From contig JAHLTZ010000022.1 of assembly GCA_025786725.1 (NCBI GenBank), positions 1-64,000 of the forward strand: a stretch of DNA of 64,000 bases. The letters are read 5' to 3'. Shown here one piece after another: positions 38,269 to 59,430 of this stretch (the first letter of the stretch is position 1; every line of letters begins with the position of its first letter). The notes beneath the pieces were generated by a model. It saw nothing but the letters and a program-made list of their open reading frames with translations. It had not been told where the DNA came from and searched no databases. The translations under genes were made by a program, and so were the position numbers. This DNA is from Syncephalis fuscata. Its lineage: Eukaryota; Zoopagomycota; Zoopagomycetes; Zoopagales; Piptocephalidaceae.

Positions 38269-38479
38269 GAAATTAAGACCAGGCAGGTTAAAATCAAGGC
38301 TGAAAAGCATTCTATCCCACCCTGAATCTATTGGTACACACGTACCTCAAACCACTATTTGGATTGCTTTATTGGTTCATACTACACATCAATGGTATAT
38401 CTCGTATACTACAGTATACTAGCATTTCAGCATAGCCGTAAGTTTAAATAGCCCACAAAATATACACATCCAACTGCAA

Positions 38480-38633
38480 TATCATCATCCTACTCTACTT
38501 CTTATTAAACACACTACTCTTCACTTTATACCAACAACACTCTACTTTTTGCTATACACACACTACCTTCCACTCTACACCAACCACACTTTACTATCTT
38601 TTTATTTGTTTGTCTTAACAAATCAATATCACC
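38480..38633 (+). promoter_or_regulatory. Pyrimidine/CACA-rich leader of the micro-exon gene
   Basis: CT- and ACA-rich sequence with ACACTAC/ACTCTAC repeats leads into the ATG at 38634 in the context AATATCACCATGAAG, a strong fungal initiation context. This supports real transcription and translation from this ATG. Confidence 0.5.
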
Positions 38634-41600
38634 ATGAAGTTTCCATTGCCGTCGTTTCCACCATTGTCGTTGCGCTTGTGGCCGTTACAACCATGGTGGA
38701 TGCTAATCCAGCCTTAGTTCGTCGTAGTATGTTGCAATAACAATAAATATGCCATAACATTATGCTTACTAACAACATTGCTAACTAATAATTATAGTGA
38801 GCTGTAAGTTGTATTGTATATTAATTAGATATACACTGATTATATACTGTGCATTGTATGCGTTAACAACTTAATATTAATAGATGGTAAGTTATATTAT
38901 ATATTAATTGATCATTGCTAATTTTATATCATGTACTGTATCCATTAATAACTTGATATTAGCGGATTGTAAGTTGTATTATATATTAACTGACTATAAA
39001 CTAATCACATGTTATGCTTTATATGTATCAATGACTTAATACTAATAGGCGGTAAGTGATATTGTATATTGCTGATTATAAACTAATTATACCATGTATT
39101 GTGTATATCAACAACTTAATATAATAGATGGTAAGTAGCATTGTATATTAACTGATTATGCGCTAATTATATACTATGCACCGTGTATATCAATAACTAA
39201 TACTAATAGCATGTAAGTTATATTGTACATTAATTCAGTATTGGCTAACTATATATTATGCGTGCGTGTATCAATAACTTAATACTAATAGGCTGTAAGT
39301 AGCATTATATATCAACCGACTTATAAATTAATTATGTGTCATGCACTATGTGCATCAATAACTTGGTGGAATAGTTAGTAAGTAACACTGTATATTAACT
39401 GACTATACACTAATTATATATTATGTATTGCGCGTGTATCAATAATTTAATATAATAGAGTAAGTTATATGTATATTAACTAATTACCCACTAATTATAT
39501 CCATGTACTGTGCGTATCAACAACTTAATAATATAGGATGTAAGTTATATATATACATATATATATATTGACTATGTATTAATTATGTTTTATATATTGT
39601 ATGCATCGATAATTTACTATAATAGGCAGTAAGTTGTATTGTGTATTGATTAATCACTCACTAATCACATGCTATTTACTAATTACGCTGACTATTTAAT
39701 ATTAATAGGGAGTAAGTGATATTACATATTAACTGACTATATATTAACTATGTTATTTACTAATAATGCGAATTATTTAATATAATAGGCAGTAAGTGGT
39801 ATTGTATATTAATTGGCTATACATTAACTATACTATTTATTGATGGTATTAACTGTTTAATATTAATAGATTGTAAGTTGTATTATTTATAAATTAATTA
39901 TGCTATTTACTAATTGTACCAATTATTTAATATTAATAGATGGTAAGTGGCAGTGTGTATTAGCTGACTATAAATTAACTATGCTATTTACTAATATACC
40001 AATTGTTTAATATTAATAGGCCGTAAGTTGTATTGTGTATTAATTAACTATAAATTAACTATACTATTTGCTGATTGTATCGATTATTTAATATTAATAG
40101 GATGTAAGTAGTATTGTATATTATTTTATTTTTTTTATTTTGAAGAGCTTGTGAGCCCCCGCTGCGCATAATTAAAGAATTTGCGCTGCTTCCCACTATA
40201 TTTGGACTTTTCCAAACTTTTAACGGGTGGACTGCCACGTTTTTGCGCAAAATCTGGTCCATATAGATTTTACACGGGGGCCATCTTCCTTTAAATGGTG
40301 CTACACAGCACTATTCTCTTGAAGTTGGTCCCAATTGGGTTTTCCTCGGCTATTCTGGCCAAGGTCTTGTTTCCGGACCTACTTATTGGGTTCTGGTTTG
40401 CAATTTGTTAACTAGAGAAAACTGGAGGGGGGATTTTCCACTTAAGGATTGATTCAAACTGAGGTTTGAACCCGGAGCCTTCAGCTCGGGAGACGCTGCC
40501 TTACCAACTGGGCTAGCAACGTCCCCTAGTATTGTATATTAACTGACTATGTACTAATCATATACTATTTACTAATTATACCAATTGTTTAATATTAATA
40601 GGGGGTAAGTGGTATTGTATATTAATTGACTATACATTAATTATACTATTTACTGCTTGTATTAATTATTTAACATTAATAGTTAGTAAGTTACATTGTG
40701 TATTAACTGACTATATACTAACCATATACTGTTTACTAATGGTATTAATTATTTAATATTAATAGAATGTAAGTAATATTGTATATTAATTAACAATATA
40801 TCAACTATGCTATTTACTAATTGTACCAATTGTTTTATATTAATAGGCGGTAAGTTGTATTTTTGCCAATTGATTGCTCACTAATCACATGCTACTTATT
40901 AATTGTATTAATTATTTAATATTAATAGCTCGTAAGTGATATTGTATATTAATTGACTACTCACTAATTACATGCTATTTACTGACTGTACTAATTATTT
41001 GATATTAATAGCTAGTAAGTGGTATTGTATATCAATGGATTATACACTAATTATATACTATGTGCGTCAACAAACTAATATCAATAGAATGTAAGTTGTG
41101 CTATATTCATTGATTACTGACATAATCATATTATGTATTATGTATATTAACAACTTAATATAATAGGTCGTAAGTTGTATTGCGTACTTATTAGTTATTG
41201 ACTAATTATATACCATGTATTGTGTATATCAACAACTCAATATAATAGAATGTAAGTAGCATTGTATATTAATTGACTATAAACTAATTACATGCTATTT
41301 ACTGTGTATATCAATAACTTAATACTAATAGATTGTAAGTTGCATTGTATAGTAACTGACTATGCATTAATCACATTCAATCTATTATGTGTATCAATAT
41401 ATTAATATTACTAGGCAGTAAGTGGTGATATTGTATATTAACTGACTATACATTAACTATGCTATTTACTGGTTGTACCGATTATTTAATATCAATAGAA
41501 TGTAAGTTATGTTGTACATTAATCGACTATGTACTAACCACATGCTATTTACTGTGCATCCACTTAATATAATAGGCGGCAAGTTGTAGTGTGTATTGAT

Positions 41601-41899
41601 TGATTTTTGACTAATTATATAACGTGTATTGTATACATCAACAACTTAATATTAATAGAGAGTAAGTTACATTATATATTAATTGGCCATAAACTAATTA
41701 TATACTATGTACTGTATACGTTAACAAATTAATAGCTTGTAAGTTGTATTGTATATTGATCGACTATGTACTAATCACATACTATTTACCGTGTATATCA
41801 ATATATTAATACTAATAGGCTGTAAGTAGCATTGTATATTAATGGCTTATATATTAATTATATGGCATATGATATCTTTATTCGTAAATACAGAATAAT
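38634..41899 (+). CDS. Secreted Cys-rich peptide gene built of 33 micro-exons
   Basis: Exon 1 (38634-38726) encodes a signal peptide: Met-Lys-Phe, then SIAVVSTIVVALVAVTTM and an Ala-Asn-Pro region. It ends in phase 1 at a GTATGT donor. Micro-exons follow, each between AG and GTAAGT, starting at 38798 (6 nt), 38884, 38963 (6 nt), 39049, 39128, 39210, 39292, 39375, 39469 (1 nt), 39537, 39626, 39709, 39789, 39870, 39940, 40020, 40101, 40602, 40683, 40766, 40847, 40929, 41012, 41088, 41167, 41249, 41332, 41415, 41499, 41576, 41659, 41736 and 41819; all others are 3 nt. The last acceptor (41893) gives a TAA across the junction. With the 1-nt exon treated as length 3n, the phase-1 reading has no stop and eight cysteines. 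One donor (41579) is GCAAGT. The signal frame needs one extra base near 38642. Function unknown; splicing is inferred. Confidence 0.72.
38727..41893 (+). repeat. Tandem array of 34 homologous introns
   Basis: Units of about 70-95 bp (mostly 80-83) repeat from 38804 to 41893. The shared pattern is GTAAGTTGTATTGTATATTA, then ACTGACTAT, an ACTAAT or ATTAAC block, TATACTATTTACT or TATGTACTGTG, and an end of AACTTAATATTAATAG. The 5' splice site, a branch-like CTAAT/CTGAC element and the TAATAG acceptor are the best conserved parts; the three bases between acceptor and next donor are the least conserved. Intron 1 (38727-38797) is related only at its ends. Neighbouring units share sub-variants (units around 39700-40100 and 40560-41000 have the TATTTACT form), pointing to local tandem duplication. 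Confidence 0.9.
40124..40526 (-). mobile_element. tRNA-derived SINE inside intron of the micro-exon array
   Basis: A ~403-bp insertion on the minus strand. Its head (40526 downward) is tRNA-like: GGGGACGTTGC, an A box TAGCCCAGTTGG (40515-40504) and a B box GGTTCAAACC (40472-40463), so it would carry an internal RNA polymerase III promoter. An unrelated body follows, and it ends in an A/T-rich tail read on the minus strand as an A-rich run (40140-40124). It is bounded by a perfect 15-bp duplication, TAGTATTGTATATTA, at 40109-40123 and 40527-40541. Removing the element and one repeat restores an 80-nt intron of the array type. The GC content and style differ from everything around it. Confidence 0.9.
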
Positions 41900-42635
41900 C
41901 GATGGTTTCAAGACATCAGCATTGATAGTGCAATCAAACCACTATTCCAATACACTTTAGGTATATATTCGGTAAAAATCAGGACCATTTGACAACTATG
42001 CCGTCCAGTCTATTTATATATCAAGTTTTGGCCAATGCTCCGGTTTATCCAGTCTTTAATCAATGAGATCATTATTTTATCAACAAGCTTGCAATCAGTT
42101 GTTTCTATTCAACTGTGCAAGCTTATAGTAATAAACTTATGGTTTCATCTTAACTATATACAATCAAATTGCTATATTTATAATCATGTCCTATTTGCAT
42201 CCAATGCTTAACAGATTAGACTAGCACAAGTTATGTCCCTATATTATTTACAAATATTATATATTATATATACCGTTGTTGAAAATGGGACATTAATACT
42301 GTTTATTATTTGCTTTGGCTGTGTAAGCTGCAACAAGACAAGCAATGAAATATTGAATGTAATAACATTTATTTCATATTGTACATTTGTATATTATGCT
42401 ATTAACTATAATGATATTTAAACAATTAATAAACTTTTATTTAATAAACTAAGTAAATATATTATGCAACAGTAAAAAGAAATAAAAATTATTATAAGAT
42501 AGAAAATTTTAAACAATGATGCAAAGCGAATGCTATAAAATTGGTCGAGATATTGACCAATATACTATAGTCAGGATGGAATTGTAATTAAATAAGTTAA
42601 ATATGAGTTTAATTAATAGTACAAACAAGGTGTAA
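41900..42635. other. Region downstream of micro-exon array, no gene seen
   Basis: AT-rich. Possible polyadenylation signals (AATAAA) for the micro-exon gene at about 42129 and 42427. The small frame at 42233 has an ATG and is hydrophobic, but nothing supports it. Confidence 0.4.
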
Positions 42636-56996: not shown

Positions 56997-59430
56997 ATGT
57001 ATCGTGTCTTGCAATCTTCTGCGTCGGCGCGTGCCGTTTACAAGTCGATGTCGGTAAGTATTATATATATATCTATATATATATAGTTTGACAATACGTG
57101 CTATTTACTAATGCACTTGGTTATTATAGGCACGTCGCAATATTTCGTCTTCGCTGGCTGCTTTGGTAAGTTTACATGCATGTCTATAGTTGTGTTTGTG
57201 TAGTGTTTATTTATGGATCTATTAAAGATATGTATGGAGCATATATATATACAAGGGTGAATAGTGGCTGTTGTTGTCGCTCGTTGACGTCACTCCTTCT
57301 TTTTATACCTTCAATTTAAAATTGCTTCTTCGTCTCCTTTGTTGTTCTTTTTCTCTACGTTATTATTGCTGAATAACTGACTAACCAACACTACTATGGA
57401 TACTGCGACACAACAGCAACAATTTCGCGTGGAACGTGATACGTTCGGCGAATTAAAGGTGCCGGCCGACCGATACTGGGGCGCTCAAACTCAGCGGTAA
57501 CTATATTAGGCGTATGGAATAAAGTATTTGTATGCTTATTATGTTTTTGTTGGTCAGTTCTCTACAAAACTTTGATATTGGTGGTGATGCAGAGCGTATG
57601 CCTGAACCAGTTGTGCGTGCCTTTGGTATTGTAAAGCATGCTGCCGCACAGGTTAACTTGACCTATGGCATGGACGAACGTGTTGGCAATGCCATCATAC
57701 AAGCAGCTACAGAAGTAAGTATACCTTTTAGTTTATTTGAAATAGACATGTAGAATAGACCATTAACTAACTATATCCACTATATTGATAGGTATCTGAA
57801 GGCAAGCTGTTGGATCATTTCCCTCTAGTTGTTTTCCAAACTGGCTCTGGAACACAAAGTAACATGAATGCCAACGAGGTAAATAGTTATAATAATGAAA
57901 TCTAGTATAAATGAGTTATAACACACATTTATTTAAAGGTTATTTCTAATCGTGCTATTGAACTATTGGGCGGAGAGCTGGGCTCCAAGAAGCCGGTTCA
58001 TCCAAATGATCATGTCAATATGTCACAATCATCCAACGATACGTAAGTGTAAAACTTGTAAGGCTTATATCTACTTATACTATTGCTATTAGTTTCCCTA
58101 CGGTGATGCACGTGGCTGCCGCTACACAAATAGCTTACCGTCTTATTCCAGCAATGACCGAGCTACGTGATGAGCTGCAACACTGCTCAGAACGATTTGC
58201 TCATATTATAAAGATTGGCCGTACTCATTTGCAGGTAATTATTGTTAACTTATAGTCTTAATATGTGTAATTTTGTGTTTTATATTATTTAGGATGCAAC
58301 GCCATTGACTTTGGGCCAAGAATTCTCAGGCTACGTACAACAAATGTCCTATGGTATCGAGCGTATCCAGTCAACATTACCTCGTCTTTATCTATTGGCA
58401 CAAGGTGGTACAGCTGTGGGAACTGTAGGTATAGCAGCTATGCTGTATAGTAGTGTTAATGAATAGAATACTAATTTGTCTTAAATAGGGACTAAACACC
58501 CGTAAAGGATTTGATGAAAAGATTGCTAGTGCTGTAGCTGACTTGACTAAATTGCCATTCAAAACGGCACCAAACAAGGTAGGTTAGCTGCTGATATTCA
58601 TGGCGTTATTTATCAACCTACTAACCAATAATACTGCGGCTTGTAAAATAGTTTGAAGCATTGGCTGCTCATGACGCCATTGTTGAAGCTAGCGGTGCAT
58701 TGAACACTGTGGCTGTATCGTTGATGAAGATTGCCAACGATATCCGCCTACTAGGCAAGGTTATTGTAATTAACGATTGGAATGTGTGGCTAATGAATAT
58801 TGCTAACGAATAGGCTCGGGCCCACGTTGTGGCTTGGGAGAACTATTGTTGCCGGAGAATGAGCCTGGCTCTTCTATCATGCCTGGCAAGGTAAATCCCA
58901 CGCAGTGTGAAGCAGTTACCATGGTGTGTGCGCAAGTAATGGGCAACAACACGACTATTACCATTGCCGGCTCAAATGGACACTTTGAGGTAAGTAAACG
59001 GATATTCATGGTTAGTATTTACACTACTAATGCGCCACAGTTAAATGTGTTTAAACCAGTGATGATCAAGAATCTATTGTCATCTGTGCGCCTAATTGCC
59101 GATGCCTGCGACAGTTTCCGCAATAACTGTGTTGTTGGCATCCAAGCCAACGAAGAGCGCATTAGCGAAATTATGAACAAATCGCTTATGCTGGTCACTG
59201 CTCTGAATCCTCACATTGGCTATGACAGTAAGTGCAATATTAGTTTGTTTTATATGTGCGTATACTGATCAATGGGTTGTCTATTGTGTATAGATGCTGC
59301 TGCCGCTGCCAAAAAGGCTCACAAGGAAGGCACTACGCTTAAAGAGGCAGCTCTCTCCCTTAAGTTGCTTTCATCCGAAGAATTTGATGCTTGGGTCCGT
59401 CCCGAAAATATGATTGGCCCAAAGGCTTAA
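56997..59430 (+). CDS. FUM1: Fumarate hydratase, class II, dual-targeted
   Basis: Interconverts fumarate and L-malate in the TCA cycle and in the cytosol. Mitochondrial form: exons 56997-57053 and 57130-57165 encode a basic, Ser-rich presequence ([20 protein letters not shown] onward) spliced to 57417-57496, then 57558-57714, 57792-57878, 57939-58042, 58093-58234, 58293-58424, 58489-58578, 58652-58754, 58814-58989, 59041-59227 and 59294-59430: 1488 nt, 495 residues, frame intact. A second ATG at 57396 opens the same frame as [15 protein letters not shown] and would give a 471-residue cytosolic form. The fumarase signature [15 protein letters not shown] is present, as are [10 protein letters not shown]-like and SSNDT substrate blocks. 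Intron 10 starts GCAAGG, forced by the conserved LLGSGPRCG sequence. Confidence 0.95.

Follow-up and report, generated by a model that had tools for sequence, protein, structure and literature searches.

In the accessible parts of the articles cited here, the micro-exon genes (MEGs) of schistosomes are described with exons from 3 or 6 to 81 bp, most of them of 15 bp, 10-20 exons per gene, introns of 0.1-5 kb and 35 genes (PMC10526429). The bicycle genes of aphids have on average ~17 exons per gene, and one of them, the "megacycle" gene, has over 100 microexons (PMC9168663). In plants, microexons of 1-15 nt lie between longer exons, either alone or in adjacent pairs, VPS55 has a 1-nt exon with conserved GTRAGT donors, and intronless copies have been explained by intron loss mediated by reverse transcription (PMC8831610). 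Here we describe an array of 33 putative micro-exons, most of them of 3 nt, in the zoopagomycete fungus Syncephalis fuscata. It lies in a stretch of 64,000 nucleotides (hereafter the window) on contig JAHLTZ010000022.1 (C135 of the 28.95-Mb, 299-contig assembly GCA_025786725.1). The array very probably belongs to a family of roughly a hundred S. fuscata genes for small secreted peptides, mostly with six Cys, in which the genomic sequence points to almost one exon per codon.

A pattern search of the window for acceptor-spacer-donor units of the form AG-N-G[T/C]AAGT returned 33 units on the + strand, between 38796 and 41827. The spacer measures 3 nt in 30 of the 33, 6 nt in two and 1 nt in one, and the donor is GTAAGT in 32 and GCAAGT in one (the unit at 41574); our recount is identical to that of the initial annotation, which had been made from the letters of the stretch. 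Two extra matches, at 38800 and 41659, are units already counted, read with a shorter spacer. Tandem Repeats Finder resolves the array into periods of 80-83 bp with 68-75% matches, and the stricter motif TTAATATTAATAG-N3-GTAAGT (up to 2 mismatches) is found 21 times within it, against 0 forward and 1 reverse occurrences in the rest of the window. The exons had also been taken to be one codon long. This holds for their length, 3 nt, and fails for their phase: in phase 1, a triplet is not a codon of its own but completes one codon with its first two bases and opens the following codon with its third.

The motif is by no means restricted to this locus. With the same tolerance, 2390 matches (1165 + 1225) occur genome-wide, against 2 (0 + 2) for the reversed control, whereas versions with a 2-nt or a 4-nt spacer give 25 (control 4) and 14 (control 14) matches, respectively. 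A chance motif is ruled out by the reversed-motif controls and by its rarity elsewhere in the window. Since a complete array holds on average 22.2 strict matches (19 arrays), the genome can be estimated to contain ~108 arrays. Furthermore, the start of exon 1 has 208 genomic copies at up to 3 mismatches and the start of the last exon has 69, with 0 for both controls. Across 502 three-nt units of 17 loci, the columns of the TAATAG acceptor and the GTAAGT donor carry 1.25-2.0 bits, while the three exon columns carry 0.17, 0.13 and 0.05 bits. In total, 61 exon-1 loci were examined: the 30 best exon-1 matches, window included, one array on contig C1, and a further 20 and 10 loci selected mainly for long open frames and for short ones, respectively. 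Among them, 39 lead into micro-exons (five of these covered over 271-521 nt only, with 2-4 units each) and 22 are continuous, a ratio that is not that of the genome because loci were chosen by open-frame length.

Arrays were modelled as chains scored by intron length and by weight matrices of the two splice sites. In 24 loci, some of which end at the limit of the retrieved stretch, the model yields 661 micro-exons, of which 630 are of 3 nt, 29 of 6 nt, one of 2 nt and one of 1 nt. Ten hold-out loci, modelled with the matrices of the first set, all prove to be arrays and add 295 micro-exons (274 of 3 nt, 19 of 6 nt and two of 2 nt). Altogether, the 34 modelled loci comprise 956 predicted micro-exons (904 of 3 nt, 48 of 6 nt, three of 2 nt and one of 1 nt), so that 952 of the 956 are multiples of three, separated by introns mostly of 73-82 nt. 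The end of exon 1 falls in phase 1 at all of these loci but the window (33 of 34); in L025 and L029 it was set by hand. In complete arrays, a signal-peptide exon with a phase-1 end comes first, 13-41 micro-exons (mean 31.8, 19 arrays) follow, and a conserved last exon supplies the stop codon.

Evidence that the triplets are coding comes from their reading frame. Eleven non-redundant complete arrays, read in phase 1, have no stop in 372 codons and 65 Cys, against 40 stops and 19 Cys in phase 2; when exon order is shuffled 2000 times within each gene, a mean of 23.3 stops (minimum 12) and 30 Cys (maximum 45) is obtained. From this count, L012, L017 and L036 were dropped as near-duplicates, L014, L021, L023, L029, C1:475325 and the window as broken or doubtful, and L015, L026, L027 and L030 as incomplete. 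The ten hold-out arrays constitute a fairer test, as nothing was dropped: a single stop and 50 Cys occur in the 314 codons of phase 1, against 31 stops and 17 Cys in phase 2, and 2000 shuffles give a mean of 19.5 stops (minimum 9) and 24.7 Cys (maximum 37). Phase-1 codons span introns, and therefore such a signal is possible only with the introns removed and the triplets kept in order. Moreover, 21 of the 29 complete arrays (14 of 19 in the first set, 7 of 10 in the hold-out) are clean, i.e., they have no stop before the last exon and a stop at most 5 codons past its start; in 12 of the 14 clean first-set arrays, this stop is at most the second codon to include last-exon bases. The proposal that the triplets would be retained in order as coding exons, already present in the initial annotation, thus finds support in the paralogs, in the hold-out set and in a group of paralogs with a continuous exon.

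These 22 continuous paralogs (seven of the 30 best exon-1 loci and 15 of the 20 loci selected for long open frames) run in one frame past the leader and Arg-Arg; an example is L034 (P0001, BDF19DRAFT_453325), which reads RR-GPKNPAKCKECINECEGVPKPSMKEKCNKPGRCKAECA. At least four Cys follow the Arg-Arg in 21 of the 22, and a C-x2-C-x3-C start is present in 12. Last-exon sequence lies right after the stop in 18 of them (alignment scores 34-71, shuffle maxima 13-19); the likeness is weaker in L075 (26 vs 14) and L068 (18 vs 15), the sequence is absent after the stop of L072 by alignment against shuffles, and in L028 the open frame continues through it. In L019, L020, L033, L034 and L035, it starts at the very position of the last splice junction of the arrays. 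Continuous paralogs and arrays have in common the leader, the Arg-Arg, the upstream region, the Cys-rich mature part and mostly the last-exon sequence, features that place both in one secreted leader family of S. fuscata. In turn, L068, L072, L075 and L076 combine the family leader with a different mature part, so that more than one secreted family seems to use this leader. A tree built from exon 1 and the last exon (37 rows, leaving out these four loci and the arrays for which no last exon was retrieved) requires 6 switches between array and continuous states (5-9 in bootstraps, which are not settled, 20 of 34 inner branches being unsupported), at least 2 of them forced by well-supported branches. 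This fits repeated intron loss through complementary DNA (cDNA), the opposite direction being also possible.

Comparison of close paralogs indicates how the arrays change. Within one gene, introns are on average 72% identical, neighbouring ones 75%. C1:475325 is devoid of one unit and of one four-unit block found in L032, the adjoining aligned introns being 97-100% (mostly 99-100%) identical, and five units of L016 correspond to two in L017. In L032, introns 19, 21 and 22 match introns 23, 25 and 26 at 95, 100 and 99% identity, respectively, which marks a tandem duplication of about four units. Such whole-unit gains and losses change the number of amino acids without frameshift.

Several other explanations of the arrays deserve consideration. 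The one that survives best, and that still seems to us rather unlikely, is that the introns are introner-like insertions into a pre-existing continuous gene and not the outcome of tandem duplication of intron plus codon. In its favour, continuous paralogs do exist in the leader family and, furthermore, introns of a single gene that are nearly identical are frequently followed by unlike triplets (in 43 of the 46 listed pairs these differ or nearly so, judged by eye). However, insertion leaves the uniform phase and the 3-nt spacing unexplained, close paralogs gain and lose codon and intron together, and the approximately six switches of the tree fit repeated intron loss through cDNA equally well.

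Less probable is that the micro-exons are real and stochastically skipped, each gene giving rise to a library of in-frame peptide variants. With nearly all modelled exons being multiples of three in a single phase, the frame would survive skipping, and schistosome MEGs are said to work in this way in the accessible part of one source (PMC4350168). The junction codons of 18 intact arrays do not favour it: ordered junctions contain 0 stops in 579, as expected from arrays chosen as intact, but skipping a single exon creates a stop at 49 of 561 junctions and skipping two at 47 of 543, with no sign of selection against such stops. This suggests that ordered full inclusion would yield the main product.

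Very improbable is the view that a single long intron, with many spare or recursive splice sites, spans the array, so that exon 1 is joined directly to the last exon, the triplets are discarded and a very short secreted peptide results. The frame obtained by joining these two exons does end almost immediately, and the exon-1 donor could pair with any of the acceptors. Nevertheless, neither a reading frame nor an excess of Cys in a recurring framework would be expected of discarded triplets, and the phase-1 signal of the hold-out arrays leads us to reject a single long intron. Besides, recursive splice sites have a zero-length exon, while here acceptor and donor are separated by a gap that is overwhelmingly of 3 nt. 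Finally, that the arrays are a non-coding ~80-bp satellite or minisatellite with chance splice-like motifs in its consensus is hardly credible, since the repeat period and the mutual likeness of the introns, which would suit it, come together with near-invariant splice sites around a triplet that alone is free and with a phase-specific coding signal that leads us to reject a satellite-only reading, and since the one array found through the motif, C1:475325, is also preceded by exon 1, a check on a single case, all other modelled arrays having been found via exon 1.

Some observations weigh against ordered retention of the triplets in genes for secreted peptides, for which all the support comes from genomic sequence. 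Phase 0 also has few stops, 3 in 372 codons in the eleven arrays and 3 in 312 in the hold-out; this is due to base composition (3 seen vs 5.0 expected among 338 three-nt exons), and phase 0 has almost no Cys (1 and 3, respectively) and is incompatible with the end of exon 1. Eight of the 29 complete arrays are not clean. Apart from the window, these are L014, L082 and L085, each with one 2-nt micro-exon, L023, where one acceptor and the stop are lost, L029, whose first donor is AT, C1:475325, with two degenerate early units, and L086, with 13 units and an internal stop. In addition, L080 is clean only with one unit of degenerate acceptor passed over by the model. Ten of the 22 continuous paralogs have no C-x2-C-x3-C start, and one (L075) has no Cys. 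Among the nine annotated proteins that carry the family leader, only the continuous paralogs extend, judged by eye, into such a peptide, and the AlphaFold2 model of the continuous paralog L034 is poor (predicted local distance difference test, pLDDT, 64; predicted template modelling score, pTM, 0.29; 12 sequences). Lastly, close colinear pairs differ at 14 of ~459 exon bases and at 211 of 11889 intron bases, with no classical signal of purifying selection; that the triplets are not slower than the introns fits a fast-evolving family. A first count, in which exons changed at two to three times the intron rate in more distant pairs, had suggested strong positive selection; this reading was rejected, as the distant pairs are partly out of register and the difference in colinear close pairs is small. 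Within genes, units whose two flanking introns are at least 0.90 alike differ at 14 of 33 exon bases and 103 of 1704 intron bases, a comparison of 11 pairs only (2 pairs at 0.93 or more).

If the triplets are retained, what do these genes encode? Exon 1 specifies a hydrophobic leader, judged by eye to be a putative signal peptide, followed by Arg-Arg, after which, by analogy with Kex2-type processing, mature peptides may be freed. In clean arrays, the predicted peptide after Arg-Arg has 27-47 residues, with at most one extra residue from exon 1. Exactly six Cys are present in 16 of 18 intact arrays (L022 has four and L024 seven), usually in the framework C-x2-C-x3-C-x5-18-C-x1-5-C-x1-8-C, whose C-x2-C-x3-C start is found in 14 of the 18; the predicted product of L018, a gene whose 31 micro-exons would add up to 96 nt, is GDPAQCAACVENCKRRTGLDWGKCRNGSCRTICA and serves as an example. 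A Pfam scan of 6 proteins gave no family reaching its cut-off. The spliced product of L018/L046 scores 22 bits against the scorpion family Toxin_2, under the cut-off of 25.1, and the likeness of L018 to scorpion short toxins is probably a resemblance of Cys pattern only. Searches of protein databases returned the nine annotated leader proteins mentioned above and, at E up to 10, matched only S. fuscata proteins, the sensitivity to distant relatives being limited. The public gene models P0002-P0006 and P0009 have the leader as in the family and diverge after it, and some of them may extend into introns. Syncephalis is a genus of mycoparasites, and the peptides are probably candidate effectors against the fungal host or competitors.

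How could such genes be spliced? Recognition of an exon is commonly assumed to require space for factors at either side of it. In these arrays, the ordinary spliceosome would remove each ~78-nt intron by intron definition. The splice information resides in the introns (GTAAGT donor, TTAATATTAATAG acceptor), and the triplet is therefore free to vary; near-invariant sites around a triplet of near-zero information are what is expected if recognition runs across the intron, the exon contributing nothing. Splicing would probably proceed 5' to 3', each triplet being stitched onto the growing upstream exon, in such a way that U1 and U2/U2AF would at no time have to share an isolated 3-nt exon. As almost all units are cassettes that keep the frame and are bounded by homologous introns, unequal recombination would insert or delete one amino acid at a time and leave the frame intact. 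We consider it likely that this is a "codon-cassette" architecture without precedent, with essentially one codon of the mature protein per exon, homologous intron units acting as recombination handles through which single amino acids come and go in frame and secreted peptides diversify, and 5'-to-3' splicing by a spliceosome tolerant of dozens of consecutive 3-nt exons.

Should this be true, genes with some 24 to 48 successive 3-nt exons would imply that signals in the introns are enough by themselves, and would open splicing order and fidelity to direct tests. For a peptide of some 30-45 residues, ~33 correct serial splices per gene would be needed. The minimum working size of an exon would be pushed to an extreme to which gene-finding and splicing models must adapt. 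A class of secreted proteins, of about a hundred genes in S. fuscata by our estimate, would have been missed by standard annotation, and a natural system would be available for adding and removing amino acids one cassette at a time.

The features of the window locus are collected in Table 1. When 400 bp upstream of the ATG are aligned, T(T/A)TAAATAG is present in 12 of 12 loci (the window, 8 arrays and 3 continuous-exon paralogs), and we take it as a putative promoter element. Most paralogs, like the window, carry a 6-nt exon within their first few units.

Table 1. Features of the micro-exon array locus; positions are those of the window.
Feature	Position	Strand	Basis or remark
Upstream region and 5' leader common to paralogs	38300..38633	+	Alignment, 12 loci
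TATA-like TTTAAATAG	38443-38451	+	Alignment of upstream regions
Exon 1, putative signal peptide ending in Arg-Arg	38634..38726	+	93 nt; phase-1 end in relatives
Intron 1, GTATGT...TAG	38727..38797	+	Sequence
Array, 33 putative micro-exons, homologous introns of ~78 nt	38798..41821	+	Sequence and gene model
First micro-exon, 6 nt	38798..38803	+	Pattern search
Third micro-exon, 6 nt	38963..38968	+	Pattern search and gene model
1-nt micro-exon	39459..39459	+	Frame lost here; AAA at the equivalent place in several relatives
Insertion 40124-40527, with 14-bp direct repeat AGTATTGTATATTA on either side (40110-40123, 40528-40541)	40110..40541	+	Sequence
Last intron, GTAAGT...AAATACAG	41822..41893	+	Sequence
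Last exon, starting AATAATCGATGG; 3' untranslated region; stop codon in intact relatives	41894..42150	+	3' end approximate
AATAAA	42130-42135	+	In last exon

The window copy itself is frame-broken. Its exon 1 has 93 nt, against 94 or 97 in modelled relatives, so that the ATG is not in the frame of the signal peptide, and with all 33 micro-exons joined the array part runs into a stop at codon 20. It could be either a decayed copy or the result of sequencing errors; L012, with 95% identity the row closest to it across exon 1 and the last exon, is intact. The exon at 40101-40103 is followed by ~500 nt that correspond to one ordinary unit enlarged by the insertion. On the reverse strand, the right end of the latter bears a tRNA-like head (40499-40526, the single occurrence in the window), which we presume, from A- and B-box motifs, to resemble the head of a tRNA-derived short interspersed element; here ARAGORN detected no tRNA and Rfam gave no match. 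Introns of 481-502 nt occur once each in L009, L012, L018, L024, L030, C1:475325, L081 and L084, and L026, L027, L081 and L084 have an intron of 885-902 nt before the second micro-exon, apparently a second, larger common insertion. Elsewhere in the window, an open frame at 58834-59268 (+) carries what we take to be the class II fumarase/aspartase signature.

In the literature available under open licence in PubMed Central (PMC), subscription papers and preprints lying outside the search, neither arrays of 3-nt exons nor this family were found to be reported, and no counterpart of the codon-cassette organisation was met with. Among the described systems, schistosome MEGs are similar in that they belong to a parasite, combine a signal peptide with many tiny exons mostly in multiples of three, encode secreted products and are difficult for automatic annotation, as far as the accessible parts of the sources describe them (PMC10526429, PMC4350168). 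In contrast, the exons of S. fuscata are nearly all of 3 nt, 13-41 per complete array, their ~78-nt introns are mutually homologous (mean identity 0.72), there are ~108 arrays by estimate, the organism is a fungus and the predicted products are short Cys-rich peptides, MEGs being compared here by description only. Aphid bicycle genes share the many small internal exons, nearly all in the same phase, and the fast-evolving putative secreted effectors, whereas one-codon exons and tandem homologous intron units, both present in the S. fuscata arrays, are not described in the accessible part of that source (PMC9168663). With plant microexons they share exons down to 1 nt, and differ from them in their runs of dozens. 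By the general features of micro-exon genes, the sequence model has most of the mature coding region in tiny exons, nearly all of them multiples of three in the same phase, and a putative secreted product, while the mostly 15-bp exons and 0.1-5-kb introns of schistosome MEGs are not those of these arrays. The S. fuscata arrays would thus constitute a micro-exon gene family in the general sense, probably of separate origin, at the size limit of the exon.

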